A DNA stretch of 64,000 nucleotides, taken from NCBI RefSeq assembly GCF_017377795.1, contig NZ_JAFRDR010000014.1, positions 62,001-126,000 of the forward strand. Direction: 5' to 3'. Made by a program: the position numbers and the translations under genes. The stretch's first letter is position 1. The number at the start of each line of letters is the position of its first letter. Below are positions 928 through 63,635 of this stretch, in pieces. The notes below the pieces were generated by a model that did no database searches, was not told where the DNA came from, and saw only the letters and a list, made by a program, of their open reading frames with translations. The stretch comes from Williamsia soli (GTDB taxonomy: Bacteria > Actinomycetota > Actinomycetes > Mycobacteriales > Mycobacteriaceae).

Positions 928-1157
928 ATGTCGGTCGGTCCGGACGAGCGGTTTCTTGTCCTCGACGAGCAGGACTGCACTCGATCTGGCTTCCAAAACG
1001 CGCCGTGCCGGCCGGGTGGACGAATGTCTCGGCGGATCCCAAAGCTTTCTGCCTCGACCCCATCGACTCCGTCTACACAGTCTTGTGTTTGCGCAGCCTC
1101 CTCGAGAAAGGTCCCCATGCCCGAGAAGACCGCCGTCATCGAAGTGCCCGCGGGTGA
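928..1157 (+). pseudogene. MbtH-like NRPS accessory protein with a single-base frameshift
   Basis: Starting at ATG 928, with a GAAGAGAG ribosome site just upstream, the frame reads SVGPDERFLVLDEQD. At about 976-978 the homology jumps to another frame reading HSIWLPKRAVPAGWT and then KAFCLD...SVYT...RSLLEK, up to a TGA at 1155-1157. Together these follow the MbtH layout: an N-terminal strand, HSxWP, VPAGW, then a Cys-Leu helix. One missing base, for example a C in TGCAC, would restore a protein of about 76 residues. The usual WTDxRP motif is replaced. MbtH proteins bind and activate NRPS adenylation domains, so its place at the head of the operon is expected. It may be a true mutation or a sequence error. 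Confidence 0.6.
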
Positions 1158-5000: not shown

Positions 5001-5147
5001 TCCGCTCGCATCCGCGAAAGCCTGGCGACCGCAATCGCCGAGCTGGCCGACGACTTAACCATCCGTTTCGCGGACAGCGGGCTGAGCGCTTCCGAGCTGT
5101 CAGCGGTGATGGCCCAGCTGTCCGGGCCTGACTGCGGTACCGAATGA
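2073..5147 (+). CDS. Non-ribosomal peptide synthetase, A-T-E
   Basis: 1024 residues with no N-terminal condensation domain, so it looks like a loading module. The adenylation domain (about 15-490) shows FTSGTTGEPKG near 145, NEYGPTE near 282, YRSGDL near 374 and NAKAD near 477, so it has all core motifs and the A10 Lys. The carrier domain has SGGDS with Ser 532. The third domain (about 585-1000) is an epimerization domain: HHLIIDEVSW near 706, SRTIGWCT and FNYMGG. Reading the pocket positions by eye against GrsA gives D-A-T-K-V-G-E-V, close to the asparagine signature as I remember it. A D-configured, possibly beta-hydroxylated Asn-type residue is the inference. It overlaps both neighbours by ATGA. 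Confidence 0.93.
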   Translation: MTTVRSAVARVAASAGDVVAVHSSASELTYRELDEQASRVTGYLRSRGVGHGDRVVVRMARGVDLFPVLLGVLGAGAAFVPIESTSTVERAAGIVRKCDAALVVTEAALLSDAIPNEAVVTLADMVGHAPTPAVPDSDRPAYVIFTSGTTGEPKGVVIGMTALHRYLEWARSEYRMDEGSGAPLFSSIAFDATLTTLFGPLLAGATIVVIGDDPMFELAETLRRRPDFSFVKATPHHVRLLTEMLEGESLVAAMRYLVVGGDELDTATVMRWMAICPVPVVNEYGPTETVVGCAAFTVLPGELSALGATVPIGRAIAGAQIHVLDEGGHSSATDEVGELFIGGPSADNAYFAQPGMTAARFVPDPFSDRGTRMYRSGDLASVRPDGIVEYHGRADRQIKVRGYRVELGEIEAAVRAASGVVDATAFAERNNGEVTTTVVYTGDADPGAIRRDLTARVPAWVVPHRILPSDVLPTTANAKADVAALVASMAPVSEPGNEPDALTVALVAEFAAVLPAGAIGSASDFYASGGDSMSSIRLVARLRRQGHAVTLADVPAHPTPQAFAALIAGRASAPEALPATKVGQEIALTPAQLDFFSLELPDPDHWNQIKVIAAPAGIEVGRLNDSLRTIVTRYDVLQYRFRDGRQFYTGGNPAVELREVDIIDRAALEEAIREANMGLGIEAGPLLRAVVTRTPNGPDHLVLVAHHLIIDEVSWYVLLDDLIAAYRDGTGSVAAAPAGFAQWRTDLARFADRPEVQTRRSFWDGVLASPAGTLPSDHEVDDYRHEHYFRDALDCESTADLRDAATAAKVGVHEVLLAALVDAVSVTFGIEPPRVDVESHGRIKVEGGVDPSRTIGWCTAVFPVVLTGETVVDLIGSAHSALGGQPWDGAEFGLLRLGEIAPSRSAEVLFNYMGGRDRKLDDAIGWALTEAPAGVQSPPAGRRPYALEFQSRILDGELGWELRGGSRHSSSIVRALSARIRESLATAIAELADDLTIRFADSGLSASELSAVMAQLSGPDCGTE

Positions 5148-22489: not shown

Positions 22490-22597
22490 GTGAGCACCAC
22501 CAGAACTACAACGCGGACGACGCCGTCCACGCCCATGCTCTCCACACGCACCACGAGACCAACTCAGGGTGGTGAAGTCGTGCATTCACCACCCTGA
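22490..22597 (+). CDS. Thr-rich 35-residue leader peptide candidate
   Basis: A GTG at 22490 follows GGGGGGAG at the right distance. The peptide begins VSTTRTTTRTTPSTPML and has 12 threonines in 35 residues. Its stop codon lies inside the right arm of a 17-bp hairpin (22560-22601), so translation would interfere with folding. This is the layout of an attenuator, but no threonine-related gene follows; the next real gene is the cutinase-like protein at 23689. It is not verified as coding. Confidence 0.35.
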   Translation: MSTTRTTTRTTPSTPMLSTRTTRPTQGGEVVHSPP

Positions 22598-22654
22598 GTT
22601 GTGTTGTGCCCAGTGGATTCTCTAGAGATTTGGTCGTCCACGAGAATCCACTGG
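22560..22654 (+). other. Two strong consecutive hairpins
   Basis: The first is a perfect 17-bp stem, AACTCAGGGTGGTGAA with its complement and an 8-nt loop (22560-22601). The second is CCAGTGGATTCTC with GAGAATCCACTGG around a 19-nt loop (22610-22654). No U tract follows, so termination is uncertain. Confidence 0.6.
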
Positions 22655-23330
22655 CAGCCAGCCGCCATGCCGTACGACCACTGTCTCTTCTAAGGGCACT
22701 GGTCGACGTCGTCGACGAAACACAACGGAGGAACCCGAAGTTCGTGTACCCACCCTTGGTTACTCAACGCGGACCCCTCAGGACTGCTCTTATCAAAGCG
22801 CGGATGTATGCCTTGTTGACTCATCACTCATCCGAAGCAACTGGTCTGCGAATGGACTTCCGAGCCTCCGAAGGCGCGAAAGGCGGGCCGAAAGTTGCTG
22901 ACGCCCGGACGTATTCGCATGCCTTCGCCCATCTACACCTCCCAACACAAGCACCTGTTAGAAACACAAACTTAGGCAGTGTTTCTGGGCCCAATTCAAC
23001 CCTGTCGAACCGCGAGGGCGAGGGGGTGGCGACAGTGGCGGCTGCCGTCACCCCCATGGAAAACGACCAACCCGCCAGCAAATCGAAGGAACAAACTCAG
23101 ATGCACACGGACAGGTCGGACCACCTTTCGCCGGGCCGGTACCCGGCGAATGGCCGACTGTTCAACGAGATGAGAAACAGCAACTACTCAGGCGGGGTCA
23201 GCATCTCTGCCCCCGGCCTGAGTGGTTGTTGCCCCACAGGCGGCCGCCTCGGGTGGCGTACGCCAGATCTAGCAAGCAAGGAAAGAGTTGACCACTATGA
23301 CCCAGTACGGGCGGCCGCCGGATAGACCGG
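22655..23330. other. Non-coding stretch with further hairpins
   Basis: A 239-codon frame (22606-23325) spans this region but shows poor codon bias and no motif. Hairpins include AGAAACAC/GTGTTTCT near 22961, GGGGGTG/CACCCCC near 23022, CGCCGGG/CCCGGCG near 23130, and ACTCAGGC/GCCTGAGT near 23188. It looks like a long structured leader of the conjugation operon. An ATG at 23101 behind GAAGGAA opens a 74-codon frame that I cannot exclude. Confidence 0.4.
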
Positions 23331-41352: not shown

Positions 41353-43167
41353 ATGCCCACAACGCCGGGAAAGATACGCGATCCGAAAAGTTCCGAAGCG
41401 TCGCTGATCTTCGGCGGCCTCGGGTTGTTAGCTGCTGTTGTCATGGTCGGTTGGGCGGCGCTGCAGTTGGCCGGTGGCCAGAGTGTGCCGAGCAATCCGA
41501 TCACTGCGGCCGGGCAAGTGGCGCGCGGGGAGCTTCTGTGGCCGACCACCGCCACTGTGTTGGCGGTGGGACTGCTCGCGGTGATCACCGTAATCGGTGT
41601 CGTCGGCGCTGTGCTGTGGACCCGGCATCGGGGACCACGAGTCCGTGTCGACGCCGCCGCACCACTGTTGGGGCGTGGCCGCGACATCGCCTCGATCACC
41701 CGGCCGGCGGTGGCGGCCAAAGCCGCCAGCATCGGGGTGGTGATGCCCGATCCGAGCACCTGCCCACACGCGAGCCCTGGGGTTCCCATCGGCAGCGCCC
41801 TGACCGGACGACCCGCGCTGTTCGGATCGTTCGAGGACATGCACCTCGACATCTGGGGGCCTCGCCAGGGCAAGTCCACCTCCCGGGTCATTCCCGCCAT
41901 CTGCGAAGCCCCGGGAGCGGTCCTGGCGACGGAGAACAAACGCGGCAACCTCGATCACACCCGGCACGTCCGTGAACAGATGGGCCGGAGGGTGTGGGTG
42001 TTCGATCCCCAGCGCGTCGCCAACTCCGAACCGGAGTTCTACTGGAATCCCTTGTCCTACGTCACCGACGAAGACAAAGCGCAATCGTTGGCTGAGCAGT
42101 TCGCTGACGGCGACGACGGTCAGGCGTCGAAGAAGGACCCGTATTTTGATCCCGAAGGCCAGGACCTCGTCGCGAACCTACTGCTCGCCTCCGCCTTGGC
42201 CCGCGAACCGATCACCGCCGTCTACGACCGCCTGACCCGGCGTGACCGATGCGCCGAAGCGGTCAAGATCCTGCGTGAGCACCATTACGACCAGATCGCC
42301 GCCACCCTCGAGGCACGGCTCCGGCTGGCCGCCAAACAGCAGGACGGCATCTTCGGTACCGCCCTGAAAATGGTGCACTGCCTGCGCTCTCGGCAGATCG
42401 CACCATGGATCACCACCAACCGCGGCGACCTGCGCCCGCACCTGGATCTGCACCAGCTCGTGCGCGGGGGAGAGACCCTGTACTGCCTGTCCCGCGAAGG
42501 GGTCGGCTCCGCTGGACCCTTGATCGCGGCATTGACGGTCGCGACGTGTGAGGCAGCCGAAGAGATCGCCACCGCCTCACCAGGTGGGCGGCTCCCGACC
42601 CCGATGCTCTGCGCCCTCGACGAAGCGGCCAATGTCGTCCGCTGGCGGCGTCTGCCAGATCTGTACAGCCACTACGGTTCTCGCGGTATCAACATCATGA
42701 CTGTGCTGCAGAACTGGTCCCAAGGGGTCCGGGTGTGGGGCAAAGAAGGAATGCAGCAACTGATGGGCGCGGCCAACGTGTTCGTCTACGGCGGCAACGT
42801 CAAAGAAGACGACTTCCTCGAGCACCTGTCCAAGCTGGTCGGCGACTACGACCGCGACATCGCCACCGTCTCCCGCTCACGGGGCAACGACTCGGTCTCC
42901 CGGCATATCTCCCGCGAACGGATCTTCACCGTCTCGGACCTGCAAGCGTGGCCACGCGGGCGAGCTCTGGTGTTCTCCGCCGGCAACCCTGCCACCATCG
43001 CCAAAACGGTGCCCTGGATGGTCAAGCCGTACGCCGGACTCATCAAAGAATCTCTGCGCCTGCACTCACCGGAAGTCGGTACAGCCCCTGAACCTGTCCG
43101 TCCCAAACACACCGCAACAGCTGCGATCCCACACCACTTCGGAGGTAACGCGCGCCATGACTACTGA
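41353..43167 (+). CDS. VirD4/TraG-type coupling protein
   Basis: 604 residues. Two N-terminal membrane helices (IFGGLGLLAAVVMVGWAAL and TVLAVGLLAVITVIGVVGAV) anchor the protein. Walker A is WGPRQGKST (about 168-176), followed by GAVLATENKRG. Walker B is LCALDEAANV, with RGINIMTVLQNWSQ typical of TraG/TraM-recognition domains. The protein brings the relaxosome to the secretion channel and powers DNA transfer. The C-terminus overlaps the DUF4913 gene by 11 nt. Confidence 0.9.
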   Translation: MPTTPGKIRDPKSSEASLIFGGLGLLAAVVMVGWAALQLAGGQSVPSNPITAAGQVARGELLWPTTATVLAVGLLAVITVIGVVGAVLWTRHRGPRVRVDAAAPLLGRGRDIASITRPAVAAKAASIGVVMPDPSTCPHASPGVPIGSALTGRPALFGSFEDMHLDIWGPRQGKSTSRVIPAICEAPGAVLATENKRGNLDHTRHVREQMGRRVWVFDPQRVANSEPEFYWNPLSYVTDEDKAQSLAEQFADGDDGQASKKDPYFDPEGQDLVANLLLASALAREPITAVYDRLTRRDRCAEAVKILREHHYDQIAATLEARLRLAAKQQDGIFGTALKMVHCLRSRQIAPWITTNRGDLRPHLDLHQLVRGGETLYCLSREGVGSAGPLIAALTVATCEAAEEIATASPGGRLPTPMLCALDEAANVVRWRRLPDLYSHYGSRGINIMTVLQNWSQGVRVWGKEGMQQLMGAANVFVYGGNVKEDDFLEHLSKLVGDYDRDIATVSRSRGNDSVSRHISRERIFTVSDLQAWPRGRALVFSAGNPATIAKTVPWMVKPYAGLIKESLRLHSPEVGTAPEPVRPKHTATAAIPHHFGGNARHDY

Positions 43168-46773: not shown

Positions 46774-48885
46774 TTAGCGTCCGAGATCGTCGTCGCGGGA
46801 GGAGGGCTGGCCCGGGGCGGACCGAACTGTGGTTGCATTCCGGCCCGGTCCGGGTGCTCCTGCCCGCTGTGGCGCTGTCGTCCTGGCGATACGCAGTCCA
46901 TCGCCACGAGCGCTGTCAGCGATCGTTTCGTAGCGGCCCGAGGCCGCTACAGTGGCCGCACGTAGCTCCTGAGCCCGCCTCCCTTGTCCTTGTGTCTCTA
47001 ATGCATCACTAATAGCTCGGGCGGTGGCTGCGAGTTGCGCAAACATAGCCATCCACGCATAGCGCGGATCGTCGTGGCTCGCGGCCAGGATCATCGCGGC
47101 AGATCGCCGCATCATGCTCGCGGCGTGCTTGCCGTCAGCATGTCGTGGCCGGCGTTCTCCGCTGGATGTGGCGAGCGCGTCGGCCATCCGAGATAGTTCA
47201 GCTGGCCGGTTGCCTTCGGCGGTGATGGCCCACGCCGACATGACGCCTGCGGTCTCGCGGGCAGCGCGTGTCCAGGCGCGGTCCGATCCGCCAGTGTCGT
47301 TGAGGCCGTTCACTCGGTCACGCCACTCGCGTGCGGTGCGGTGCGCGTCGAAGTACTCCGACCCGGCCGTAGTCGAGGTACTCGCTCCGACACGTTCAGC
47401 GTCTTGGGCGCGCCCGGCTGCGCGCTGCCACGCGTGGCCCGCCATTTGCTCCTGCACGCCCGTGCGCGGCCATCTCTTTCGCAGAGCTGTCAGCGAGAGC
47501 GTGTTGTCGAGTTTCCCGCCGCCGTGCCACATCGGCTTGCCGTCAGCAGCGGCATAAACGCTGGGACGTAGGGCAACTGAGTAGCCGACAACCTTGTCGG
47601 TGCTGCCGGCGGCGAACCGAGGGCGGATCAGTAGATCTGGATGGGTGTAGGCGGCGCTGACGAACGCATCTTCGGTCGGTGACGCAGTTGCGACTTTTGC
47701 GACCGCTGCGCGCAGCCGTTCCTTGGCTTGTGCGGCGTTGAGTCGACGCGGTGGGGAAGCTGCACGCTTATCCGTTCCGGCCGCCGGGGACGAGGCGGGG
47801 GAGCGGTGGGGGTCGATCTGCTCTCGGTGATTGTGCGCCCAGGCGCTCACTGCGTCGGCGCGTGCGCCGTCATCGGGCGCTGCCCAGTGTTCGCGAAGGC
47901 GAGGCAGTGTCAGGTCGACACCCAGTTTGCCGCCACCGTGCCAGACCGGTCGACCGTCGCGGGTGGCATAGTTGTCAGTCGGGAGTGCGACTGAGTAACC
48001 GACAACATCCGTCTTCGACCCTGCGGCATAGCGCGGTCGGACCAGGAGCCCGTTCGCTCGTGCCATGCGCACGAACTCCGCTTCAGAATCGGCGGCCGCG
48101 GCGACGCCACGGACGCGGCGGGCCAGTGTTTGTTTCGCTGGTTCTGCCCGGCCGGTGCGGTCGGCAATGTTCTGTTGTGCGGGTGAAGTCCCTTTGCTTG
48201 GGTAGCTTTTTGCGCGGCCAGCAGTGATCCGCAGGCCGTGTTCCTCCTCGAGTGCGACACACACATTCTGGGCGCGCCATTTGTCTCCGCGCGGCCGGTC
48301 TTCGCCCGGTTCGGGGAACCACAGCTTGACCACACTGCCGTCGTCGCGCACACGCGACGCGGCAATGTGGATGTGATCGCCGCCGGCCTTGGTCAGTCCG
48401 TGGCGGACGGCTACCCACCGGGCCGGTGCATCGCCGTCGCTGTCGAATCCCATCCGCGCCATGAACTGCTCGGAGATCTTCTGCCACTGCGCGTCCGACA
48501 ACCCCTGCTCGCTGGCTCCTTCGCCTGTGAGTGCCTCGGTTTCTTCGGGGGAGAGCGACAGCGAGCAGTGCCACACGTTTTCGTCTTTAGTGGCCTCGGC
48601 GATCGCTGCCGAGCCGCGCAGACCGCGCTCTTGTGCGGCGGCAAGTGCGCCTTTGTCGCGACGGCTCACTTCGGTTCCGAACACCAGGCGTGCCGCGTCG
48701 AGTTCGCCGGCCAACTCCAGCGCGGTGTCGTGGCTTAGCTCCACACCTGCGCCGCCGACCAAACTCAGCGACGGGGTACTGGCGGCCACGATGTGGGGGT
48801 TAGCGTGCTCGTTCGCCCGCCCTGGGCCGGCGAGGTACATGACGAGGCCGGTCATCTTCGCGCCGGTCTCGATGTTCGGAATCAT
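46774..48885 (-). CDS. Conjugative relaxase (mobilisation nuclease)
   Basis: 703 residues. The N-terminal 230 residues hold the relaxase core: MTGLVMYLAGPG with a candidate Tyr, and GGDHIHIAASRV (about 168-179), the His-x-His metal site of MOBP-like relaxases. It would nick oriT and lead the strand into the recipient. Two related segments of about 85 residues follow (about 250-335 and 386-473); both contain a (L/I)RPR(Y/F)AAGS...VVGYSVAL...WHGGGKL pattern. The rest is a helical region. The start overlaps mobC by 4 nt. Confidence 0.85.
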   Translation of the reverse strand: MIPNIETGAKMTGLVMYLAGPGRANEHANPHIVAASTPSLSLVGGAGVELSHDTALELAGELDAARLVFGTEVSRRDKGALAAAQERGLRGSAAIAEATKDENVWHCSLSLSPEETEALTGEGASEQGLSDAQWQKISEQFMARMGFDSDGDAPARWVAVRHGLTKAGGDHIHIAASRVRDDGSVVKLWFPEPGEDRPRGDKWRAQNVCVALEEEHGLRITAGRAKSYPSKGTSPAQQNIADRTGRAEPAKQTLARRVRGVAAAADSEAEFVRMARANGLLVRPRYAAGSKTDVVGYSVALPTDNYATRDGRPVWHGGGKLGVDLTLPRLREHWAAPDDGARADAVSAWAHNHREQIDPHRSPASSPAAGTDKRAASPPRRLNAAQAKERLRAAVAKVATASPTEDAFVSAAYTHPDLLIRPRFAAGSTDKVVGYSVALRPSVYAAADGKPMWHGGGKLDNTLSLTALRKRWPRTGVQEQMAGHAWQRAAGRAQDAERVGASTSTTAGSEYFDAHRTAREWRDRVNGLNDTGGSDRAWTRAARETAGVMSAWAITAEGNRPAELSRMADALATSSGERRPRHADGKHAASMMRRSAAMILAASHDDPRYAWMAMFAQLAATARAISDALETQGQGRRAQELRAATVAASGRYETIADSARGDGLRIARTTAPQRAGAPGPGRNATTVRSAPGQPSSRDDDLGR

Positions 48886-49322: not shown

Positions 49323-49386
49323 CGCGATCCCTCCCTTCCGCTCGTCACTCTGTCGGCTCAGCGCAGCGAACCCACCCGTGGGGACT

Positions 49387-49540
49387 CATCCACCAACACC
49401 GTTGATGGATGCACCGTACCGCGACCCAGGAACGGAAACAAGCGTTTAGGCATGCCTAAACGACAGCTTGCTCCGCTGCTCCACCGCAGCAACTGCTCCA
49501 CCGCAGCAACTGCCTGCGCATCGTCCCCTCGGGTGATGCC
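49387..49540. other. oriT: Candidate origin of transfer upstream of mobC
   Basis: This non-coding stretch starts 65 nt upstream of mobC. It holds an imperfect hairpin CATCCA-c-CAAC-acc-GTTG-a-TGGATG (49387-49411), a perfect 20-bp palindrome CGTTTAGGCATGCCTAAACG (49443-49462), two tandem 17-bp repeats CTGCTCCACCGCAGCAA (49476-49509), and a further hairpin near 49518-49538. Such a set next to mobC-relaxase is typical for oriT. The nick site is not identified. Confidence 0.55.
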
Positions 49541-52983: not shown

Positions 52984-53325
52984 GTGGCTCTCGATCTCAG
53001 CGCCGAGTCGGCGATAGAGCTGACCTATCTTGTCTATCCCGGCGACCGCGAAGCTCCGCTTGCCCTGTGGGGGTTCCCTGACACTCACCCTGCCGCCTGG
53101 CTGTCGGCGCTGGCCGGCGATCACGCACTGCTGGTGGTCGGGGATAGCGCCGTCATCTCGCAGGCAAAGACACCGGCGGCGACCACGCGTGCGCTGACCG
53201 ACGTGTGGGCGGGCATCATCGGATGCAGTGACACCTGCGTGGTCCGAGCCGCTGCTCCCCACAAGGCCTGTCGGCGCCATTGTCTACGCCAAAGCCCTTC
53301 GTGGTCAGTCGTATCCGGCCTCTGA
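52984..53325 (+). CDS. Small hypothetical protein
   Basis: 113 residues from GTG 52984 with GTCAGG upstream. SAIELTYLVYPGDREAPLA and DHALLVVGDSAVISQAK look like strands of a small alpha/beta domain; the last 25 residues are Arg/Cys-rich and overlap the convergent fic gene by 21 nt. The start may lie further upstream. Not recognised. Confidence 0.4.
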   Translation: MALDLSAESAIELTYLVYPGDREAPLALWGFPDTHPAAWLSALAGDHALLVVGDSAVISQAKTPAATTRALTDVWAGIIGCSDTCVVRAAAPHKACRRHCLRQSPSWSVVSGL

Positions 53326-54237
53326 GGTGTTGTCGCGGCCGGGATCTCGCCGGTAGTGCGCGGGCCTTCGGTTGGGGTTCGCCTGCTGCGTGGGATCTGT
53401 GGTGGGCCGCGCGGCGGCTTCTCGGGCGGCGGTGGGGTGGTCGCGGCCGGCCAGCCGCGCCGCACGCAGGGCCGCTGAGGTCACCGCGGAGCTCGTTCCC
53501 GGTGGGTCCGGTCGTGGCGACGGCGGCGCGGACTGAAATGACGATGCGGGTAGACCGGCTCGTTTGTGAACTTTCATCGCTTCGAACAGTTGCACTGCAG
53601 TTCGGGTATCGCGGTGCCCTTCGGTCCTCGACAGCGTCAATGCCGGTGCTGTGCCAAAGGGGACAACACCGGGGCGTAGCTCGGCCGCGAGAAAGGTCGA
53701 ATCTGTGGTCGCCATGGCTATGTGGCGCGCTGCGTGGACGGCGGAGGCGTTGACCTGTGTCCAGTCGATGTCCCACCCGGCGTCGGCTAGGTACTGGTTG
53801 AAGAACACGCGTTGGCTGCGTGAGTTGCCGTCACGGAAGGGATGGACTGCGGTCAGCTCGCCCCAGTGCTCGGCCACCGTCGCTGTGGCCAGGTCGGGGT
53901 CTGCCGGTGTGGGGCGGTGTCGTTCGATAGCACCGAACACCACGCCGAGCTGGTTGGGGATGAACTGCGGGCGGCAGTGCGCCAAGCCCATGGCGGTGGT
54001 GTCCTGGGTGGCCGATCGGATGTGGCCGGCCCACGGGTAGACGTCTTGCAGGATGTAGGCGTGGATCCTTTGCAGGTGAGCGAAGTCGAAATCACCGCCG
54101 GCCAGGCCCGGGTCCACTTCCAGCTGCCAGATACGGGCAGCGGCCATACGGCGTTCAAAGTGGGCCAGCTCCGCCGGATCAGTAAGGCCGGGCAGATTCG
54201 GAAGAACCTGCCCGGCCTCATCGTCTGATGTAGCCAC
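53305..54237 (-). CDS. fic: Fic-family AMP-transferase toxin
   Basis: 310 residues. The Fic core covers about 50-180: FAHLQRIHAYILQDVYPWAG and the active-site motif HPFRDGNSR (His about 132). Fic enzymes attach AMP or similar groups to hydroxyl side chains of target proteins such as gyrase. No inhibitory alpha-helix motif is seen in the protein itself, so it is a class that needs a separate antitoxin. A small gene 11 nt upstream supplies that. The C-terminal 100 residues are Arg/Pro-rich and disordered. Confidence 0.9.
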   Translation of the reverse strand: MATSDDEAGQVLPNLPGLTDPAELAHFERRMAAARIWQLEVDPGLAGGDFDFAHLQRIHAYILQDVYPWAGHIRSATQDTTAMGLAHCRPQFIPNQLGVVFGAIERHRPTPADPDLATATVAEHWGELTAVHPFRDGNSRSQRVFFNQYLADAGWDIDWTQVNASAVHAARHIAMATTDSTFLAAELRPGVVPFGTAPALTLSRTEGHRDTRTAVQLFEAMKVHKRAGLPASSFQSAPPSPRPDPPGTSSAVTSAALRAARLAGRDHPTAAREAAARPTTDPTQQANPNRRPAHYRRDPGRDNTSEAGYD

Positions 54238-54484: not shown

Positions 54485-54694
54485 TCAAAACAGGGTGTGT
54501 TGGGCCTCGGCGGCGCTCTGGTCGGTGAGCTGCTGGTACAGCGCCGCCATGCGTTCGACGGCAGCCAAGGGTTCCTCCAGCTCGTCGGCGATGTGCGCCC
54601 AGCTCAAGCCCTGGTGGTGGTGCATCTGCCATGCCATCCGGTGCAGGTCGTCCACGCTCAGGACCGGCCCACCCGGCTGGTGCTCCGGCGTCAT
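54485..54694 (-). CDS. Small helix-turn-helix-like protein
   Basis: 69 residues, overlapping the DnaB-N-like gene by ATGA. DDLHRMAWQMHHHQGLSWAH followed by IADELEEPLAAVERMAALY suggests a small HTH of the sigma-70 region 4 or Trp-repressor type. It lies between a DnaB-N-like gene and the Fic module. A DNA-binding role is inferred only from the fold. Confidence 0.5.
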   Translation of the reverse strand: MTPEHQPGGPVLSVDDLHRMAWQMHHHQGLSWAHIADELEEPLAAVERMAALYQQLTDQSAAEAQHTLF

Positions 54695-55311
54695 AGCCGA
54701 GCCAACTTGTCACGCTTGGTGAGCCAGAGTTCTTCGGCTCGTTGCTGGTGGCCGGTGAGGTTTTCCCAGTGCCCAGCCAACTCTTCGACGCTGACGCTCT
54801 CGCGGATCTGCGACATCCGGGCCAGCAGGCCGGCGTAGCCGCGGCGGTACCACTGGTCGACGACTTTGGCGGCCAGGTGCGGCAGGTCAGCACCACCGAC
54901 CGTCGGGCCACGCGAAGGGGAGATGATCGCCAGCAGTTCAGCTTCGACGCGCTGCAATCGTCCGGTCTCGAACAACTGCGCCTGGACCAGGGTGGGGTTG
55001 GGGGGCGCGCCGCCATCGAGGACCGCGCAGATGGCCAGAAAGATCTCACGATGCGCACCCTTCCAGAACGGATCCCACCGATCGCCGGTGTCCATGATGT
55101 GTCGGACTTCGCGGGCCATGTCGGCCGGCGCCCACATCAGTGCGGTGAGTAAAGCGGCTTCGACGCCGGTGGTGACGGTGTTCTCGGTGTCGAGGTCGGC
55201 TCCCAGTCCGCCCGGAAACTCCTCGGAGGACAGGCCCGCTTCGTCGAGCTGGTCGTCGACGGCAGGGGCAGTGTCGGTGTCGGTGTCCATGTCACTGGCG
55301 GTGATGGTCAT
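54691..55311 (-). CDS. DnaB N-terminal-domain-like protein
   Basis: 206 residues from ATG 55311 (AGGAGGAA upstream). After an acidic N-terminus, residues about 50-150 match the helical N-terminal domain of replicative DnaB helicase: TGVEAALLTALMWAPADMAR, WDPFWKGAHREIFLAICAVL, PPNPTLVQAQLFETGRLQ. No RecA-type helicase domain is attached. Stand-alone DnaB-N proteins could act as adaptors or decoys for the host helicase or primase during plasmid replication; that is an inference. Confidence 0.75.
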   Translation of the reverse strand: MTITASDMDTDTDTAPAVDDQLDEAGLSSEEFPGGLGADLDTENTVTTGVEAALLTALMWAPADMAREVRHIMDTGDRWDPFWKGAHREIFLAICAVLDGGAPPNPTLVQAQLFETGRLQRVEAELLAIISPSRGPTVGGADLPHLAAKVVDQWYRRGYAGLLARMSQIRESVSVEELAGHWENLTGHQQRAEELWLTKRDKLARL

Positions 55312-55351
55312 CGGTTCCTCCTGGTCGGCGGGTCTAGGTGTGGGGTCGTGC

Positions 55352-55618
55352 TCAGGCGGTGGCATAGGACAAATCCGCGTAGAGGCAGTCCGGCTGATGG
55401 GGGTCACTCACGTGCTCGGAGCATTCGGCGCAGCAGTCGTCGTTGTCGTAGCGCAGGTCGTCGGCGCGCAGCCAGGGGCGCATCCGGTGCGCCTGTTCTG
55501 CTCGCTCGGCCAGTTCCTCGAGGCGGCCGGCATGCCGGGGGTCGCCGGCGTCATGGGCGCGCTGCGCCTGCTCGCGATAGTGCGCGGCGCGGTCGGCGTA
55601 GTTGTTGCGGATACTCAT
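55352..55618 (-). CDS. Small plasmid protein with Cys/His cluster
   Basis: 88 residues from ATG 55618 (GAGGGGAACG upstream). The N-terminal helix is charged (DRAAHYREQAQRAHDAG, LEELAERAEQAHRM). The C-terminus has DDCCAECSEHVSDPHQPDC, a likely zinc-binding set of Cys and His. The gap to nrdH is only 14 nt. Function unknown. Confidence 0.55.
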   Translation of the reverse strand: MSIRNNYADRAAHYREQAQRAHDAGDPRHAGRLEELAERAEQAHRMRPWLRADDLRYDNDDCCAECSEHVSDPHQPDCLYADLSYATA

Positions 55619-55632
55619 CTGCGTTCCCCTCT

Positions 55633-55878
55633 TCATGCCGCCGCGGTGGCAGCGAGTGACTTCACTCGGTCTGGACGGAAACCGGACCAGTGTTGTTCTC
55701 CCGCAACGACAACGGGTGCCTGCAGGTAGCCCAGACTCATCACGTAGTCCCGCGCTTCGTCGTTGGTGGTGATGTCGACGGTCTCGTAGGCCAGGCCGGC
55801 CTTGTCCAGCGCTTTGTAGGTGGCGTTGCACTGCACGCACGCAAGCTTGGTGTAGACGGTGATCGTGGTGTCAGTCAT
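55633..55878 (-). CDS. nrdH: NrdH-like glutaredoxin
   Basis: 81 residues from ATG 55878. Thioredoxin fold: ITVYTKLACVQCNATYKALD with the CVQC redox pair, GYLQAPVVVAG with the cis-Pro, and WSGFRPDRVKSL, the NrdH-specific C-terminal segment. NrdH gives electrons to ribonucleotide reductase and is common on actinobacterial plasmids and phages. The first gene of a minus-strand unit, 139 nt downstream of palindromic element A. Confidence 0.88.
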   Translation of the reverse strand: MTDTTITVYTKLACVQCNATYKALDKAGLAYETVDITTNDEARDYVMSLGYLQAPVVVAGEQHWSGFRPDRVKSLAATAAA

Positions 55879-56017: not shown

Positions 56018-56179
56018 TCATTTCCTGATAATCCGCCGCTCTCGTGGTCGGGGTGTCAGAGTCCAGTGGTGGCGGCGGGAAAGTCCCGCGAAATAAGCGC
56101 AGCGCGTGGGGCTTTGGTGCCAGAGCCACTTGACGCTGGCAGCTCGGCTGTTCGAGATACTCCAGCGGGTCAGGCAATG
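56018..56179. repeat. Palindromic leader element A
   Basis: 162 bp, an imperfect inverted repeat. The outer arm begins GTCATTTCCTGATA and ends in a related complement (TCAGGCAATG). The core stem AAAGTCCC...GGGGCTTT surrounds GCGAAATAAGCGCAGCG. Homologous to elements B (57394) and C (60838). It lies between the nrdH unit and the gene at 56209-56703. Confidence 0.6.
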
Positions 56180-56208
56180 CCACCAGACATGCCCGCCGCC
56201 CCGGCGAC

Positions 56209-56703
56209 TCAGGCGGTCCGGCGCCGGTGCTCGGCCAAGCTCTCTGTGCTTGGGGTGATCTCCCAGGTACTGGCGTCGTTGTAGCCGGGGAGCTGGCGGA
56301 TCATGGCTTCGCGCAGGTGGTAGCAGTAGCGGTACGCCTCGCTGGTGTCCCAGCCGGGATCGGACCAGTTCTCGAAGTCATAGCCGTCGATCGCTTTGAG
56401 GATTTCGATCGGCTCGAACACGCGCGCAGGGGGTTGGTAGTCGTAGACGTAGGTTCCGTTCTCGCCGAATTGGGTGTTGACGCTGGCGGCGTGGGCGTCC
56501 AGGAGCAGCTGCCCGACCGCGCTGGCCGATTCCGGGCGCAGGGCGCGTCGCCGCTGCGGGCGGGCGTCGCTCAGCCCGTTAGCGGGGGTGGGGTCGGCGT
56601 CATCGGTGCTCGGCCAGCTGATGATTCCCTGCCGGCCGGACAGTCCGGCGTATACGAGAACGTGGATGTGTTCGGCGTCGACGAGGTAGCGGGCGCTCAA
56701 CAT
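56209..56703 (-). CDS. Hypothetical plasmid protein
   Basis: 164 residues from ATG 56703 (AAAGGAC upstream). LSARYLVDAEHIHVLVYAGL opens a beta-rich domain; GTYVYDYQPPARVFEPIEIL and SDPGWDTSEAYRYCYHLREA follow. No signal, no membrane segment and no family that I recognise. It forms a minus-strand unit with the LPD29 gene upstream, 44 nt apart. Confidence 0.55.
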   Translation of the reverse strand: MLSARYLVDAEHIHVLVYAGLSGRQGIISWPSTDDADPTPANGLSDARPQRRRALRPESASAVGQLLLDAHAASVNTQFGENGTYVYDYQPPARVFEPIEILKAIDGYDFENWSDPGWDTSEAYRYCYHLREAMIRQLPGYNDASTWEITPSTESLAEHRRRTA

Positions 56704-56747
56704 TGGTGGGTGTCCTTTCACACAAGTGGGCAGGTCCGAGCGCAGGT

Positions 56748-57332
56748 TCAGTACTCGACCCGGGTGGGTTGGCCGGTGGTGGTGTAGTCGGTGATGTTCA
56801 GAGCCGAACTGATGGCGGTTCCCATGTCGTAGGGCTGGCCAGGGAGTGGTTCGCCGAGGTAGGACAGCCAGCGGTCGGGGTCGATGGTGAGCATGGCCAC
56901 CGATCGGTGCAGGGTGTTGGCGGTCAGCGCGTCCGGGTCGATGCCTTCGACGGTGAACGCTGCTGCCATCTCACGGTTCTCGGTGAGCATCTGACGGGCG
57001 GCGGCCTGCACTGCCTCGTCGGAGAATCCGCGAGCTCCGTTGATGCCGTCGCAGTGGTACTCGCGGATCTCGGGCAACTCGGCGGTGTCGGTGCACACCA
57101 GTGTCGGGTCTATCAGGTCGTAGCTGTCGGTCATGCCGTTGAACTGCGCACCCTGAAACTGCGACCACTCGGCGCGGGCCTGGGTGTAAGTCGGTCCGTC
57201 GGTCCAGGCGACACCGATCCAGGCTGAGGCGGTGCCTCGGTTGCAGCGCACCGAGAACTTCACGTCGGGCCACACCCGGCGCAGGTGCTTACGCAGTTCG
57301 GCGGCGGTCTCTTTGGTGCTGTAGCTGGTCAT
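56748..57332 (-). CDS. LPD29-domain protein
   Basis: 194 residues from ATG 57332 (GGGAGA upstream). The N-terminus KETAAELRKHLRRVWPDVKF, then SVRCNRGTASAWIGVAWTDG, is the LPD29 pattern: helix, then a beta-hairpin ending in WTDGPT. LPD29 is found fused to large polyvalent proteins or alone on plasmids and phages. The rest has NREMAAAFTVEGIDPDALTA and a C-terminal strand. It lies 61 nt from palindromic element B. Confidence 0.7.
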   Translation of the reverse strand: MTSYSTKETAAELRKHLRRVWPDVKFSVRCNRGTASAWIGVAWTDGPTYTQARAEWSQFQGAQFNGMTDSYDLIDPTLVCTDTAELPEIREYHCDGINGARGFSDEAVQAAARQMLTENREMAAAFTVEGIDPDALTANTLHRSVAMLTIDPDRWLSYLGEPLPGQPYDMGTAISSALNITDYTTTGQPTRVEY

Positions 57333-57393
57333 CTCTGGTGTCTCCCTCTGCCGGTGGCGGGGACTTGGCCCGGTCGACCGTGACCGGAGGCCC

Positions 57394-57555
57394 CTCATTT
57401 CCTGATAACTGGCCGCATTCAGCAGACGGGCCGGAGGACCAAGAAGCGGAGACAGGAAAGTCCCGCGAAATAAGCGGAGCGCGTGGGACTTTGGTGGTGG
57501 AGTCTCTTGGTCCGCAGGCTCGGCTGTGGAAAGAATCGGCCTATCAGGGAATGAG
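57394..57555. repeat. Palindromic leader element B
   Basis: 162 bp. Arms CTCATTTCCTGATA and TATCAGGGAATGAG close an imperfect stem of about 70 bp; the core is AAAGTCCC...GGGACTTT around GCGAAATAAGCGGAGCG. About 90 bp to its right are also shared with element C, including AGGTGACCGCGCAGCGGGCA. It lies 61 nt upstream of the LPD29 gene. Confidence 0.7.
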
Positions 57556-57808
57556 AACCTCCCCTGTAGTTGGGAGGAGGCGTTTGTGCGCCGCAGGCGC
57601 ATCCGCTCAGGTGACCGCGCAGCGGGCAGACATGGCCGCGGAGCGGACCCACGAAAGGCCGGCACCACCTGGATCAGTGGCCGACCTTCGGGTTGGTGCG
57701 TGGCTCCAACGCGTCGACGCTGGGAGATGCTTGTGCGGGAGCTGCGCTAGTCGCGGTAGGGCTTGGTGCCGCGGTAGCTCTGGGTTTGGTTCGCTACAGC
57801 AGAGTCTT

Positions 57809-59572
57809 ATGAGCAGTGATACTTGGTCTATGAGTCGTATCGAATGGTCGCGGAAGACAGCGGACGAGGTTGAGGAGGCGATTTCGATGTTTTTGTGTCG
57901 GATGAACCCCGCTGCCTTTCGGGTTCGCCCTTCGCAGGGTGATGGTGGCATTGATGTGTGCGTGCCTACGGGTGTGAACCGATTCGAGGTCTATCAGGTC
58001 AAGAAGTTCGCCAGCAATTTGACCAGTAGCCAGAAGACGCAGGTAGAGAAGTCCCATGCCCGGCTCCGCGACTTCGCCGGTGAGCGCGGTTGGACGATCG
58101 ACAACTGGTACTTGACGTTGCCGCTCGATCCAACGACGGAGAACCTGAGTTGGCTCGCCGAGATTGCTGCTACGGGTCCGTTCCCGTGTGATTGGCGGGG
58201 GCTGTCGCATGTCGATGGGTGGGCTTCGAACTACAAGGACGTGGTGGACTACTACTTCAATGATGGACGTGAGCGGTTGATGGAGGACCTCGCCCGCTTC
58301 ACCGCCATTTCGGGTATCCCCATGTCGCCCGGTGTTCTTCCAAGTGTCGAGTCTTTTCCGACGCTCGCACCGAGTGATGTGCTCAATGGTCTTGTGCGAC
58401 TGCGTGAAACTCTGAATGCGCGTGATCCTCACTATTCGTACGACTTCTCGGTCTCCGGGCAACCCCCTCCTCGGCCTGTTAGCGGCGACTATCCGTCTAC
58501 GCTTGCAGCTCGCACGGCGCAGCAGGTGGGCGACAGCTACGTCACTTTCGATGTTCATGCCAGATGCGCTGAGTCGTTGAAGGAACGGCCCATCAAGGTC
58601 ACGATGACGTGGATGGCGCAGCGGGGCAGCGTTGAGCATCGAGAGCTAGAGGAATTCTTCACTTACGGTCGCACACCGGAACATCCGATCCAGGCGCGAG
58701 ATGTCACCGTCGAGATGCCCGGTGGCCTCGGTGGCGAGAGCGCCCTGGCGCAGGTGCTGATGTCAGAGGCTGGCGAGCCGGGCGAGCCCTTCGAGCGTCG
58801 GCTGAGCATCCTGTCGCCCGAGGACGAGGTGCTGGCCACGATCGAGCTGACTATGTATCCGCCGGTGAGCAATCACGATGGAACTGGTCAGTCGAACCGG
58901 GGGCGCGACCGGTCGGGATTCTTCGAGCTGGAGACGTTGGTGCTTGCTGGACCGCCAAAGCAGATGACACTACGGCTGCGCACAGAAGATCCGGTCGGGC
59001 TGCGTCCAGACCAGCTCGAACCGGCGCTAGCGGTGGTCGATTCATTTCGGCTTCCAAACCAGATACGGCTTGAGGCCACCCGCGGGCCTGCACGATCGAC
59101 AACTCACCCAGTCCCCGCCTCTGATGCCAGCGATGACTCACGAGCCACCAACAGGGCACTGCTCGCGTACGTCCGCGCGCTGATCGTCATACAACGACAC
59201 ACGCCGGTCGAGCTAAAGTTTCCCGAGTTCGAACGTCTCAGTGAACTGAACATTGCCGAAGCTACAGCGACAGCCAAGCTTTTGAACGGTGAAACCCTCA
59301 AGCGCACGTGGAACACCTTGCAGTTTCATCTGAATCCGGAGGCCGCCGCGACCGATGAGCCGCGTCTTTTTGTGGCTGATCAGGTTCCGCTCTCGTTTAA
59401 TGTCGGAGGTGACCACATCGAGTTAGGTCGTGTGCGGCATATTTTTGAATCAGCAAGAATCGTGAGCACCGAGGCAGCGGAGGACGGGCAGCTTTTGGCT
59501 ACCCTCCAGCCTGGTCCCGGCAACGACACAGTGCTTTCTGCATGGCATGGGGAAGCGTCGATCGATCATTGA
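57809..59572 (+). CDS. Nuclease-domain fusion protein (QxK, Mrr-like N-terminus), defence candidate
   Basis: 587 residues from ATG 57809; the frame is open further upstream but only through element B. EWSRKTADEVEEAISMFLCR is the first helix, and GDGGIDVCVPTGVNRFEVYQ followed by VKKF gives the Asp and Gln-x-Lys of Mrr-type nucleases (about residues 46-70). The remaining 450 residues form a beta-rich region (VTMTWMAQRGSVEHRELEEF, MTLRLRTEDPVGL) and a helical C-terminus (NRALLAYVRALIVIQRHTPV). Its codon use is less GC-rich than that of its neighbours, and it stands alone on the + strand among minus-strand plasmid genes, as a cargo gene would. Confidence 0.65.
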   Translation: MSSDTWSMSRIEWSRKTADEVEEAISMFLCRMNPAAFRVRPSQGDGGIDVCVPTGVNRFEVYQVKKFASNLTSSQKTQVEKSHARLRDFAGERGWTIDNWYLTLPLDPTTENLSWLAEIAATGPFPCDWRGLSHVDGWASNYKDVVDYYFNDGRERLMEDLARFTAISGIPMSPGVLPSVESFPTLAPSDVLNGLVRLRETLNARDPHYSYDFSVSGQPPPRPVSGDYPSTLAARTAQQVGDSYVTFDVHARCAESLKERPIKVTMTWMAQRGSVEHRELEEFFTYGRTPEHPIQARDVTVEMPGGLGGESALAQVLMSEAGEPGEPFERRLSILSPEDEVLATIELTMYPPVSNHDGTGQSNRGRDRSGFFELETLVLAGPPKQMTLRLRTEDPVGLRPDQLEPALAVVDSFRLPNQIRLEATRGPARSTTHPVPASDASDDSRATNRALLAYVRALIVIQRHTPVELKFPEFERLSELNIAEATATAKLLNGETLKRTWNTLQFHLNPEAAATDEPRLFVADQVPLSFNVGGDHIELGRVRHIFESARIVSTEAAEDGQLLATLQPGPGNDTVLSAWHGEASIDH

Positions 59573-59633
59573 GGCAGGTCGTCGTAAGACGAGACACGCA
59601 CCCACAGCCCTGTCCCGTGCGGCATGCTCACGG

Positions 59634-59948
59634 TTACCACGGGGTGGTGGCCGGTGCGTGTGCCTGGCCGGTGTCGCGGACGTGGGCGGCCGCGGCCTTG
59701 AGTGAGGCGTGGTCGACGGTGCCGTGGTCGTCTTTGCTGGCGCAGGCCAGCAGGAGTGGTTCGTCGTCGATGCTGATGGTGAGGAAGGGGACGGCGTGGG
59801 GTTGTTCGCCGGCGAGGTGGTCGAGCGCAGCGAGTGCCGCGTCGCCGGCGGCGCGGTGGGCCTCGGTGTAGGTGGTGGCGGCGTTGGCGTCGGCGAGGAT
59901 GTCGTCGGGTTCGGTTGCGGTGTAGGCGGTGATGCTCCAGCAGATCAT
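59634..59948 (-). CDS. Small hypothetical plasmid protein
   Basis: 104 residues from ATG 59948 (AAGGACACC upstream). SITAYTATEPDDILADANAA and AAGDAALAALDHLAGEQPHA are helices, then PFLTISIDDEPLLLACASKD gives strands. Compact alpha/beta with no recognised family. Between it and the upstream gene there are two strong hairpins. Confidence 0.5.
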   Translation of the reverse strand: MICWSITAYTATEPDDILADANAATTYTEAHRAAGDAALAALDHLAGEQPHAVPFLTISIDDEPLLLACASKDDHGTVDHASLKAAAAHVRDTGQAHAPATTPW

Positions 59949-59994
59949 GGTGGGGTGTCCTTGTCGGTGAGTGGTTGCCTGTGGTGACAAGGAT

Positions 59995-60069
59995 GCCGCG
60001 CGGCCCCTCGGGCCGCGCGGCATATGGGGTCCCCAGACCCGTTTCTGTGGATAGATTTTGGGTCTGGGG
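59995..60069. terminator. Two perfect hairpins between minus-strand genes
   Basis: GCCGCGCGGCCC pairs with GGGCCGCGCGGC around CTC (59995-60021). TCCCCAGACCC pairs with GGGTCTGGGGA around 19 nt (60030-60070). They follow the stop of the gene at 60079-60747. Confidence 0.6.
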
Positions 60070-60078
60070 ATAACCGGG

Positions 60079-60747
60079 TTAGCGGTTGCCGTTGCCGGGG
60101 GTGGGGCCGTTGGTGATCCAGCCGGTGCCGGTGATCTTGAAGCGGTGTTGGGCGCGGGGTCGCCAGCTGTCGGCGGCTGAGTTCTTGGCGTAGGTGTCGC
60201 CGTCGTCGAACAGCGCAACGGCCAGCTCGTGGGCCTTTTTCATGGTGGCGAGCATGGTTTCGATGGCGGTGGTGTCCATCAGGGCGAACGTCAACGGCGG
60301 CATCCGCAAGGTGACGTAGGGGGACACTTTGCGGGTGACGGGGTGGGTGAACTGGTCGCGGTGGGCGGCTCCGTTCGGCGGCCGGGTCCACATCATGGTG
60401 GTCTGCACTCCGACGTTGCTCTCGCTCATGATGCCGGGGAGCTGGTGCATCCGGGCCATGCCCATGCGGGCCTGGCGGGCGATGGCGAACAGTCCGAGTG
60501 TCAGTTGCACTTGCTCGCAGTTGGTGAATTGCATGGTGATGCCGGTGAATTCGATCTGCAGGACCGGGGTCCCGGTGCCTGGGGCGATGGTGGTGATGCG
60601 GCCGTGCTGCTCTCCGCAGACGGTGATGTTGACGTTGCTGACGACGCCGTTGGTCCGCAGGGGCAGTGGGGTGGGGGTATGTTCGGGGCGGCTGCCCTCG
60701 ATGCGGCGCGCTTCGGTGTTGGGGGCTTTTGCTTTGCCTTTGGCCAT
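60079..60747 (-). CDS. Hypothetical plasmid protein
   Basis: 222 residues, ATG 60747. Basic N-terminus (AKGKAKAPNTEARRIEG), then strands NVNITVCGEQHGRITTIA, PVLQIEFTGITMQFTNCEQV and MWTRPPNGAAHRDQF, and a C-terminal helix MLATMKKAHELAVALFDDG. No family recognised. It is the first gene after palindromic element C (90 nt). Possibly a structural or single-strand-binding protein, but I have no firm motif. Confidence 0.55.
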   Translation of the reverse strand: MAKGKAKAPNTEARRIEGSRPEHTPTPLPLRTNGVVSNVNITVCGEQHGRITTIAPGTGTPVLQIEFTGITMQFTNCEQVQLTLGLFAIARQARMGMARMHQLPGIMSESNVGVQTTMMWTRPPNGAAHRDQFTHPVTRKVSPYVTLRMPPLTFALMDTTAIETMLATMKKAHELAVALFDDGDTYAKNSAADSWRPRAQHRFKITGTGWITNGPTPGNGNR

Positions 60748-60837
60748 GGCGGGCGTCTCCTGGTCTCACTGGTCGCGGGCCGGGTGCTCGGCGACCTGAC
60801 GTGAGGCGGGGTGCTGGTCGTTGGTGACCAGGGGCAC

Positions 60838-61055
60838 CTCATTTCCTCATAACTGGCCGCATTCAGCAGACGGGCCGGAGGACCAAGAAGCGGAGACAAA
60901 AAAGTGGCGCGAAATAAGCTCCCGGCGGAGAGGGAATTGATCGAGCCCGGCCGAAGGCCGGCCAATTCTCCGGCGGGGGCGCGTGCCACTTATTTGGCGG
61001 AGTCTCTTGGTCCGCAGGTTCGGCTGTGGAAAGAATCGGCCTATGAGGGAATGAG
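60838..61055. repeat. Palindromic leader element C with extra inner palindrome
   Basis: 218 bp. Outer arms CTCATTTCCTCATA and TATGAGGGAATGAG and most of the stem match element B. The core stem is AAAGTGGC...GCCACTT, where B has AAAGTCCC...GGGACTTT: both arms changed together. The loop holds an insert of about 56 bp that is itself a palindrome (CCGGCGGAGA...TTCTCCGGCGG). Confidence 0.7.
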
Positions 61056-61338
61056 ACCTCCGAAGGAGGAATGCAGTTGCGCCGTAGGCGTATCCGAGTA
61101 GGTGACCGCGCAGCGGGCAGACATGGCCGCGCAGCGGGCACCGGGTGAGGGGTGAGCCTGGCCAGCATTCGACTGGGGGGTCATGCGCTGCAACCGGTTG
61201 GGTGGTTGCCTCGTGCTGGCCAGGTTCGGTGGGCGACGTTAGCACCGCCTGGCGGGTGGTGTCGCGGCGAGAGACCCGGCCTGCCTCCCCTCGCAAGTGT
61301 TCGCTATCGTAATGATCAACTTTAGGGAGGGAATGTTG

Positions 61339-61780: not shown

Positions 61781-61820
61781 ACAAGGGGCCCACCTCCGGC
61801 TGTGGAGGTGGGCCCCTTGT
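61781..61820. terminator. Bidirectional terminator between convergent genes
   Basis: ACAAGGGGCCCACCTCC pairs perfectly over 17 bp with GGAGGTGGGCCCCTTGT, 6-nt loop. T- and A-rich ends are on both sides of the GC stem. Confidence 0.75.
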
Positions 61821-62258: not shown

Positions 62259-62604
62259 ACACTTCAAAAGGCGCGCGCCCCCTATGGTGACCACAAGAGC
62301 GAAGCTCGGGCCGCAGGTCCGACAACGCCCGGCCCGGTATGGCTGGGGAAGTCAGCGGGTAGCCCCGCCAGCAGGTCGGGGTGCTTATGAGCGTTGACCC
62401 CGGCTTAGGTGCTGCCGGTTCACAACCGAGCCGGGGCACCGCCCCCACAGGCGGAAGAAATAGAGGAGCCTGGCCAGCTTCAATCGGGGGGATTGGTCCG
62501 GGGGGACTGCTGGCCAGGCTCGGCGTTGACGATAGCAGCGGCATCGGACAGGGCCGCTGCCGTGCGGGGCAGATCGTGGTGTGATCTGCCCCGCACGGGG
62601 TTGG

Positions 62605-63635
62605 TCAGTCCAGGGGGACCTGGTCGGCGGTGGCCTGGCCGCTGATCACCTCTTCGACATCGGAAAGGGTGTAGCCGAACACCGAGACCAGCATCTGCAG
62701 GTAGCTGGCGCGGTGGGCGGTGTAGCTGCGATCCGTCTCGCGCCAGGCACTTTTGGGCATGTCGGCCTCGTGCGCGCCGATCGCGATGGCCAGATTCACG
62801 ATGTGACGCCGCTCCGCGCTCGCACCGGCCATCGCCTCGATGGGGTCGGTGCCGCCTAGGAACTGACGGGTCAGGGCCTTGGCGTTGCCGTCCTGGCGGT
62901 TGTAGCCGAACAGGTCGTGGTTGTTTCACATCGTGGACGCGAGGAACTCGGCCACCGCACCAACAGCACCTTTCGGCAACGTCTTGCGCGAGAGGTACTC
63001 GCCGATCTTCTCGCGCCGGACTTTCAGTGCCGCGTCGGCTTTCTTGTTGAGCGCGATCGTCTGCCGCCGCGCCTGGCGGTCGGCTTCCTTCTGCGCGTCG
63101 ATCTCGGCGTCGGTGGGCATCGGATCGGCTCCGGCCGAGCGGTACCCGTAGGTCCGGACTGCCAACCCGGCGGCCTCGGGATCGGTGACGTACCAGCTGG
63201 TGTCGGTGTCGATGAGCGTGCGCGGGGTCGATCAGCCCTTCACCGACGGTCGCGGCGGGATCGTCGTCGCCGTCGAGGGACCAGTCGATCAGCTCCTCGT
63301 CCACCAGGATGCCGTCGGTGTCGGCCCAGCGTTCGTGGAGTCGGCCCGCACGTACGCCAGCCGGTAGGCGGCGTCGACCTGCTCGATGTCGGTGACCGCA
63401 TTGCCGTTCCGTCGACGAGCCGGTGCAACTCGGTGGCGTCGCTGCTGTAGTCGGGCCGATTGCCCGTGGCCGCGATGCCCTGCTCGAGGTAGCCGTCCAC
63501 GACCGTGGCTGCCAAGCTCTTTCTCTGCGGCAGCAATCGCATCGTAAACAGGTTGAAGTCGGCCATCTCTAATGCAAGATCCGGTCCCACCGGGGTCTTC
63601 CATACATCGATCCTACTGTCGACGAGGGCGGCCAT
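62605..63635 (-). pseudogene. Broken ParB-like partition protein gene
   Basis: Read 5' to 3' on the minus strand, homologous segments follow in different frames. The first ends in HRLVDGTA (63400 region), the next reads VTDIEQVDAAYRLAYVRADS, then VDEELIDWSLDGDDDPAATV, then RTLIDTDTSWYVTDPEAAGL. Three single-base shifts join them, followed by an in-frame TGA near 62926 between ASTM and NNHDLFGYNR. The helix RREKIGEYLSRKTLPKGAVG resembles the C-terminal region of plasmid ParB proteins. A ParB N-terminal nuclease-like domain is not seen. Either a decaying gene or a region of sequence errors. Confidence 0.45.

Follow-up and report, generated by a model that had tools for sequence, protein, structure and literature searches.

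Hairpins before the leading genes of a Williamsia conjugative element are candidate single-strand promoters

A few enterobacterial plasmids are known to carry single-strand promoters, and the open papers that we searched describe none for Actinobacteria. The closest parallels, Frpo1 and Frpo2 of plasmid F and the single-strand promoter of ColIb-P9 (ssi), are long imperfect hairpins of the transferred strand in the leading region; they carry –35 and –10 boxes in the stem and occur in several copies per plasmid (PMC9849209, PMC11541004). EGeRS1 of the Bacillus plasmid pLS20 is likewise a repeated structured element before establishment genes, for which the transferred strand is reported to be the non-template strand and the fold to contain no promoter (PMC8708921). 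Single-strand origins (sso) of ICEBs1 and rolling-circle plasmids also form a hairpin on the transferred single strand, and are known as priming sites (PMC4595007 for ICEBs1). Here, we analyzed three long palindromes, hairpins A, B and C, in a stretch of 64,000 nucleotides (nt) of Williamsia soli (contig NZ_JAFRDR010000014.1, positions 62,001 to 126,000; hereafter the window). The window, which belongs to a conjugative element, contains genes for a coupling protein and a relaxase, and a candidate origin of transfer (oriT). We consider it probable that the hairpins act as single-strand promoters in the leading regions of conjugative plasmids in Actinobacteria, in a manner like that of Frpo, because of the covariation of their stems, their strand and place relative to the relaxase, the promoter-like boxes in their 3΄ arms and the strand of the next gene.

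The original prediction, made from the window alone, described three homologous palindromes of 162, 162 and 218 nt with common ends and core, each shortly upstream of a minus-strand unit. A repeat search recovered the same homology: B and C are 89% identical over 104 + 81 nt, and A and B 61% identical over 104 nt and 84% over 62 nt. With limits set by the conserved ends CATTTCC...GGNAATG, the real lengths are a few nt off those predicted (Table 1), and the next minus-strand start codon lies approximately 140 nt (nrdH), 63 nt (LPD29) and 92 nt (gene 60747) away. The 6.07 Mb genome contains exactly three copies of the core, one in each of hairpins A–C and all on the + strand. The core stem differs on both sides between B (AAAGTCCC/GGGACTTT) and C (AAAGTGGC/GCCACTT), and the extra nested palindrome in the C loop is present, both as predicted. 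Compared with shuffled sequences, B (z –4.0 to –5.4) and C (z –5.4) fold strongly, and folding of A on the complementary strand is weaker (z –1.8). However, equally strong folds occur elsewhere in the window (22561, 62461 and 59941), so that folding alone cannot single out A–C, whereas homology and covariation do. Among other strong structures in the window, 62461–62640 is a hairpin with a nested palindrome, 59993–60023 and 61781–61820 are hairpins resembling terminators, and 22520–22680 holds two adjacent near-perfect inverted repeats. A separate repeat of 30–60 nt containing GGTGACCGCGCAGCGGGCA follows B (57587–57646) and C (61078–61137); it is also found at L027 and L030, and occurs without a hairpin too.

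Table 1. Features of the Williamsia window (positions within the 64,000 nt)
Feature	Position	Strand	Description
Hairpin A	56019–56179	+	161 nt; upstream of nrdH; R1 68.9 bits (A itself in model)
A core	56088–56098 and 56102–56108	+	GCGAAATAAGC and GCGCGTG, inside hairpin A
A boxes	56130–56135 and 56156–56161	+	TTGACG, spacer 20, GATACT; score 6.59; 0/100 shuffles as high
Hairpin B	57396–57553	+	158 nt; upstream of LPD29 gene; R1 80.6 bits (B itself in model)
B core	57465–57475 and 57479–57485	+	inside hairpin B
B boxes	57507–57512 and 57531–57536	+	TTGGTC, spacer 18, AAGAAT; score 5.45; 24/100 shuffles as high
Hairpin C	60840–61053	+	214 nt; nested palindrome in loop; upstream of gene 60079–60747; R1 70 bits (C itself in model)
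C core	60909–60919 and 60979–60985	+	inside hairpin C
C boxes	61007–61012 and 61031–61036	+	TTGGTC, spacer 18, AAGAAT; score 5.45; 43/100 shuffles as high
Coupling protein TraG/VirD4	41353–43167	+	PF12696, PF02534
Relaxase, MobA/VirD2-like, MOBP	46774–48885	–	PF03432 40 bits, cut-off 24.6
Candidate oriT	49354–49476	+	conserved non-coding block; 87% identity with G008 and G005:C10 across 124 nt
Inverted repeat of candidate oriT	49387–49411		CATCCACCAAC-ACC-GTTGATGGATG, then invariant CACCGTACCGCGAC
DnaB N-terminal-like domain protein	54691–55407	–	nrdH unit; PF00772 24.2 bits, cut-off 23
nrdH (glutaredoxin-like protein NrdH)	55633–55878	–	first gene after A; TIGR02194 108.1 bits, cut-off 85.75; PF00462
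Small protein	56209–56706	–	second after B; no family match
LPD29 protein	56748–57332	–	first gene after B; PF18847 91.9 bits
Gene 60747	60079–60747	–	first gene after C; no family match

With hairpin B as the query, copies were found in six of nine genomes of the genus, its own included. A structure-aware search, which the original prediction had proposed, did yield further copies: the covariance model R1, built from 25 sequences, gave 55 matches on 41 contigs from 35 of 401 family genomes, with more than one copy on 9 of these contigs. A pattern scan of all genome contigs gave 49 stretches, in which the core, but not the stems and boxes, is conserved by construction, and added copies in Knoellia, Janibacter, Arsenicicoccus, Propionicicella, Nocardioides and an actinomycete metagenome-assembled genome; stretches in Proteobacteria, Nitrospira, Bacteroidales and similar groups, with neither end motif present, were set aside as chance. 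In a phylum sample, R1 matched the own genome alone (1/396), so that beyond the family the class is either rare or goes undetected. Searches with blastn found no match to hairpin B among 72,556 plasmids, to hairpin C among phages, or to a Gordonia hairpin and the L155 hairpin among plasmids. The L147 hairpin matched five Dietzia plasmids, and one Dietzia plasmid, pDK313-83, has three R1 matches in unannotated gaps before units with annotated ParB, ArdC-like and NrdH genes. Rfam gave no match at the gathering score, and the class I core pattern was found in no viral contig. One R1 match (L168 in G191; 28.4 bits), on a chromosome in a genome where no relaxase was found, looks like chance; it was left out of the folding, composition-control, gene-homology and box-pairing sets, and is still inside the 61-copy box score set, the downstream-gene count and the 41 contigs. 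Weak matches of 28 bits in G201 and G399 (L169 and L170) were kept in the sets. Loci L063 and L102 (NZ_JNYV01000012 and NZ_JNYV01000010), filed under Kitasatospora arboriphila NRRL B-24581, probably come from a misnamed or mixed assembly corresponding to Williamsia G005, whose contig C10 shares 99.9% identity with G008 in the vicinity of the relaxase.

The stems of these copies show pronounced covariation. In an alignment of 25 sequences (A2), 95.4% of cells are paired and two-sided changes occur in 9 of the 13 pairs, with 82 such cells as compared with 28.1 in shuffled alignments and 19–43 in slid controls (covariation score 0.678, shuffled 0.184). An alignment of 60 distinct rows fitted to the model (A3) has 196 two-sided changes (60.6 when shuffled). 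The change seen between B and C is one of these. Stem cells of alignment A1 contain 54 G-U and 2 A-C combinations, and those of A3 contain 45 and 7 once the fixed pair beside the core, which is G-U in 51 of 60 rows, is left aside; these counts are somewhat biased, since G-U was permitted in the fold that defined the columns. With RNA as well as DNA parameters, the hairpin strand is the better-folding one in every one of the 60 copies (mean z –4.6, as against –3.2 for the other strand), and its z is the lower of the two in 51 of them. Since G-U exceeds A-C and folding is better on this strand, the sequences identify the constrained strand as the + strand of the window, which is the putative transferred strand, and not the mRNA of the following genes. 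The predicted selection on the fold is thus borne out by covariation, but its folded-RNA variant is not, as the wobble pairs lie on the other strand.

We then compared the hairpins with the relaxase genes. A relaxase of the MOBP (PF03432) or MOBF (TrwC) family is encoded on 29 of the 41 R1 contigs, and 8 of the 12 others are under 20 kb. On all 29 contigs the hairpin and the relaxase gene are on opposite strands, with the same outcome for both relaxase families, and on 25 at least one copy lies 4.8–24.2 kb upstream of the relaxase on the linear contig. None of the 41 contigs has copies on both strands. In the window, A–C lie 7–12 kb beyond the candidate oriT, past the 5΄ end of the relaxase gene. 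Seven further genomes were tested, from outside Mycobacteriales and from C. variabile; five have a relaxase on the hairpin contig, where five of seven copies are on the strand opposite to it, and on three of these five contigs a copy is upstream only if the contig ends are joined into a circle. The relaxase is typically encoded in the part that enters last (PMC11541004). Orientation and place fit a leading region in which the transferred strand would be the template. In plasmid F, the leading genes share the orientation of traM and traJ and thus have the same relation to the transfer genes.

A –35/–10 pair in the 3΄ arm points toward the hairpin base and the following gene, so that in A the RNA would run toward lower coordinates. 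The mean best score in this arm was 6.21 (61 copies, one doubtful), as compared with 4.94 for shuffled sequences, 4.93 for the reverse complement, 4.88 for the reversed arm and 5.19 when the 5΄ arm was complemented. A TTG at a place compatible with a –35 box is present in 58 of 60 copies, most commonly beginning TTGAC, and among the –10 boxes GATAAT, TATAAT and TACAAT score best. The unpaired fraction is 0.15 for the –35 box, 0.52 for the –10 box and 0.26 for the rest of the arm, a contrast to which the choice of A/T-rich hexamers contributes; in A, the –10 box is mostly unpaired in the predicted fold.

Downstream genes were called with a simple caller using codon-position G+C. The first gene is on the predicted strand for 53 of 58 copies. 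Of 104 first or second products called, 59 were scanned, with 28 matches to Glutaredoxin, 7 to DnaB_N and single matches to ArdcN, ParB_N, LPD29, DUF2786 and DUF4192. The commonest first gene behind the hairpins is NrdH, often followed by a DnaB N-terminal-like protein. NrdH is the electron donor of class Ib ribonucleotide reductase. These genes suggest early support of DNA synthesis. A homologue of gene 60747 on G006:C99 also stands behind a hairpin, and another homologue is on G001:C21.

On the basis of these results, we hypothesized the following sequence of events. During conjugation, the transferred strand, + in the window, would enter 5΄ end first from oriT near 49.4 kb, and each palindrome on it would fold into an imperfect hairpin of 160–215 nt. 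Pairing of its two arms would restore the –35 box in double-stranded form and leave the –10 box partly melted, so that the RNA polymerase of the host could bind there and transcribe from the apex side to the base and out along the 5΄ flank. The minus-strand genes (the unit from nrdH to DnaB_N, the LPD29 gene and gene 60747) would thereby be transcribed before a second strand exists, and upon conversion to double-stranded DNA the hairpin would be lost and expression would fall. The RNA started at the hairpin may also prime second-strand synthesis.

Several observations weigh against this reading. The boxes of B and C, taken alone, are no better than those of shuffled sequences, and spacers range from 15 to 20. 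Shuffles of the same dinucleotide composition explain –13.2 of the –20.3 kcal/mol strand difference, about two thirds. The identity of the transferred strand is one that we infer from relaxase orientation. Three of the 29 contigs (G061:C24, G117:C67 and G271:C4) would have to be circular for their copies to lie upstream, and on G265:C3 the distance from the upstream copy to the relaxase is 84 kb. Two of the seven copies in the additional genomes (Nocardioides; one of two in Knoellia) are on the relaxase strand, which counts against a strict orientation rule; these copies (L070:5120–5207 and L078:5374–5469) are 1–2 kb from the relaxase and point away from it. Finally, 10 of 11 plasmid regions chosen by relaxase similarity lack an R1 match, and a different hairpin class stands at such sites in three of the four R1-negative regions that were folded.

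These 11 regions (H1, H2, H4, H5, H6, H8, H9, H10, H13, H17 and H18) were matched by R1, in a run that excluded L187 and L188, only in pGKT1 of Gordonia sp. KTR9, which was already in the family search (G293:C3). Gaps were folded in 4 of the 10 R1-negative regions. In pCP113, pCP86 and G. hongkongensis p2, leading genes are preceded by a hairpin with GCGAAAAAGT ... AGTTTTTCGC, which lies on the other strand from the relaxase, and in G. pseudamarae p1 three folded gaps gave no recognisable hairpin. This second class has nine copies on six contigs in Gordonia leading regions (L175, L178, L187, L145, L149 and L150), on one strand within each contig. Its core also lies beside R1 copies, and on their strand, on G094:C16, G130:C16 and G141:C35. 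The second-core pattern was found in 38 stretches of viral contigs, 37 of which are one conserved sequence (contigs of 43–51% G+C) and the other an odd contig; these are unrelated. Williamsia G001, with a relaxase and no R1 match, has a further hairpin before its homologue of gene 60747.

The most serious competitor is that the hairpins are priming sites only, in the manner of ssi or sso, starting second-strand synthesis without gene expression. Such sites would need the same strand and region, and the several copies per plasmid, the invariant apex core with its look of a recognised site, and the same-strand Knoellia copy (L078), which has no downstream gene to drive, all agree with it. However, priming alone leaves unexplained both the –35/–10 pair and the siting just before genes, which are correctly oriented in 53 of 58 cases, and we regard it as unlikely. 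A double-stranded or cruciform operator, bound by a plasmid regulator or partition protein before the leading units, would account for a palindrome with an invariant core repeated before several units. Nevertheless, the pairing constraint favors one strand (G-U over A-C) and the stems vary freely with pairing kept, unlike those of an operator, so this explanation is quite improbable; the cruciform that the original prediction had named beside a folded RNA is not needed for explaining the data.

A structured 5΄ leader of the minus-strand mRNA, that is, an attenuator or riboswitch, is suggested by the distance of 60–140 nt to the start codons. The mRNA strand, however, folds less well in every one of the 60 copies and would carry A-C mismatches in place of the wobbles, and Rfam has no match, which makes a leader very improbable. 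The chance of a miniature inverted-repeat transposable element (MITE) or other passive repeat is close to negligible: the several copies per plasmid agree with it, but there are three copies in 6.07 Mb, none of them outside the Williamsia element, strand and place are fixed on 29 contigs, and no flanking direct repeats were seen by eye at the ends of A–C. Single-strand promoters active at plasmid entry, which the original prediction had offered as one explanation, are the reading that the sequence comparisons support best.

The remainder of the window contains other genes. The non-coding block with the inverted repeat is likely the oriT; a nic site was looked for in it, and its strand could not be fixed. 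Between B and C, on the opposite strand, gene 57818–59572 (+) has a weak LmuA match (PADLOC, 23.2 bits) and no Pfam match; it may encode a defence nuclease and have been inserted into the leading region. A Fic protein (53305–54237, –; PF02661) is also encoded in the leading region, and Gordonia relatives have a VbhA-family antitoxin and Fic at a similar place. The large open reading frames at 928–10629, left of the plasmid functions, read by eye like a non-ribosomal peptide or polyketide synthase cluster.

If single-strand promoters are indeed present, the first genes of the plasmid would be switched on at once after entry, while it is still single-stranded. A recognisable element would make leading regions, transfer direction and the first-expressed establishment genes readable from sequence in Gordonia, Williamsia, Dietzia, Corynebacterium and others, and it allows one to test directly whether an actinobacterial RNA polymerase is able to initiate on single-stranded DNA that is folded. 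More tentatively, and with more doubt than belief, we suggest that the hairpins might form an actinobacterial class of their own on MOBP and MOBF plasmids, unrelated in sequence to Frpo, in which the invariant apex core would be read by a conserved factor and double as a priming site, and NrdH would feed ribonucleotide reductase so that deoxynucleotides are ready for second-strand synthesis.

Because blastn with B against the 72,556 plasmids and R1 against the leading region of F matched nothing, the elements, as far as sequence can tell, have no detectable relation to Frpo and are not members of that sequence family. They also differ in form and company: the Williamsia-type hairpin is about half as long, its apex is a GC-rich invariant core instead of the A/T-rich stem of F, and NrdH and DnaB_N genes follow it more often than SSB or PsiB. 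Compared with EGeRS1, boxes are present, and the transferred strand, which we infer from the relaxase, would be the template strand. Nevertheless, the hairpins share with Frpo and ssi the leading region, the long imperfect fold and stem boxes pointing toward genes (weak in B and C alone), and when the region upstream of ssb in plasmid F was folded here, the apex likewise preceded the promoter.

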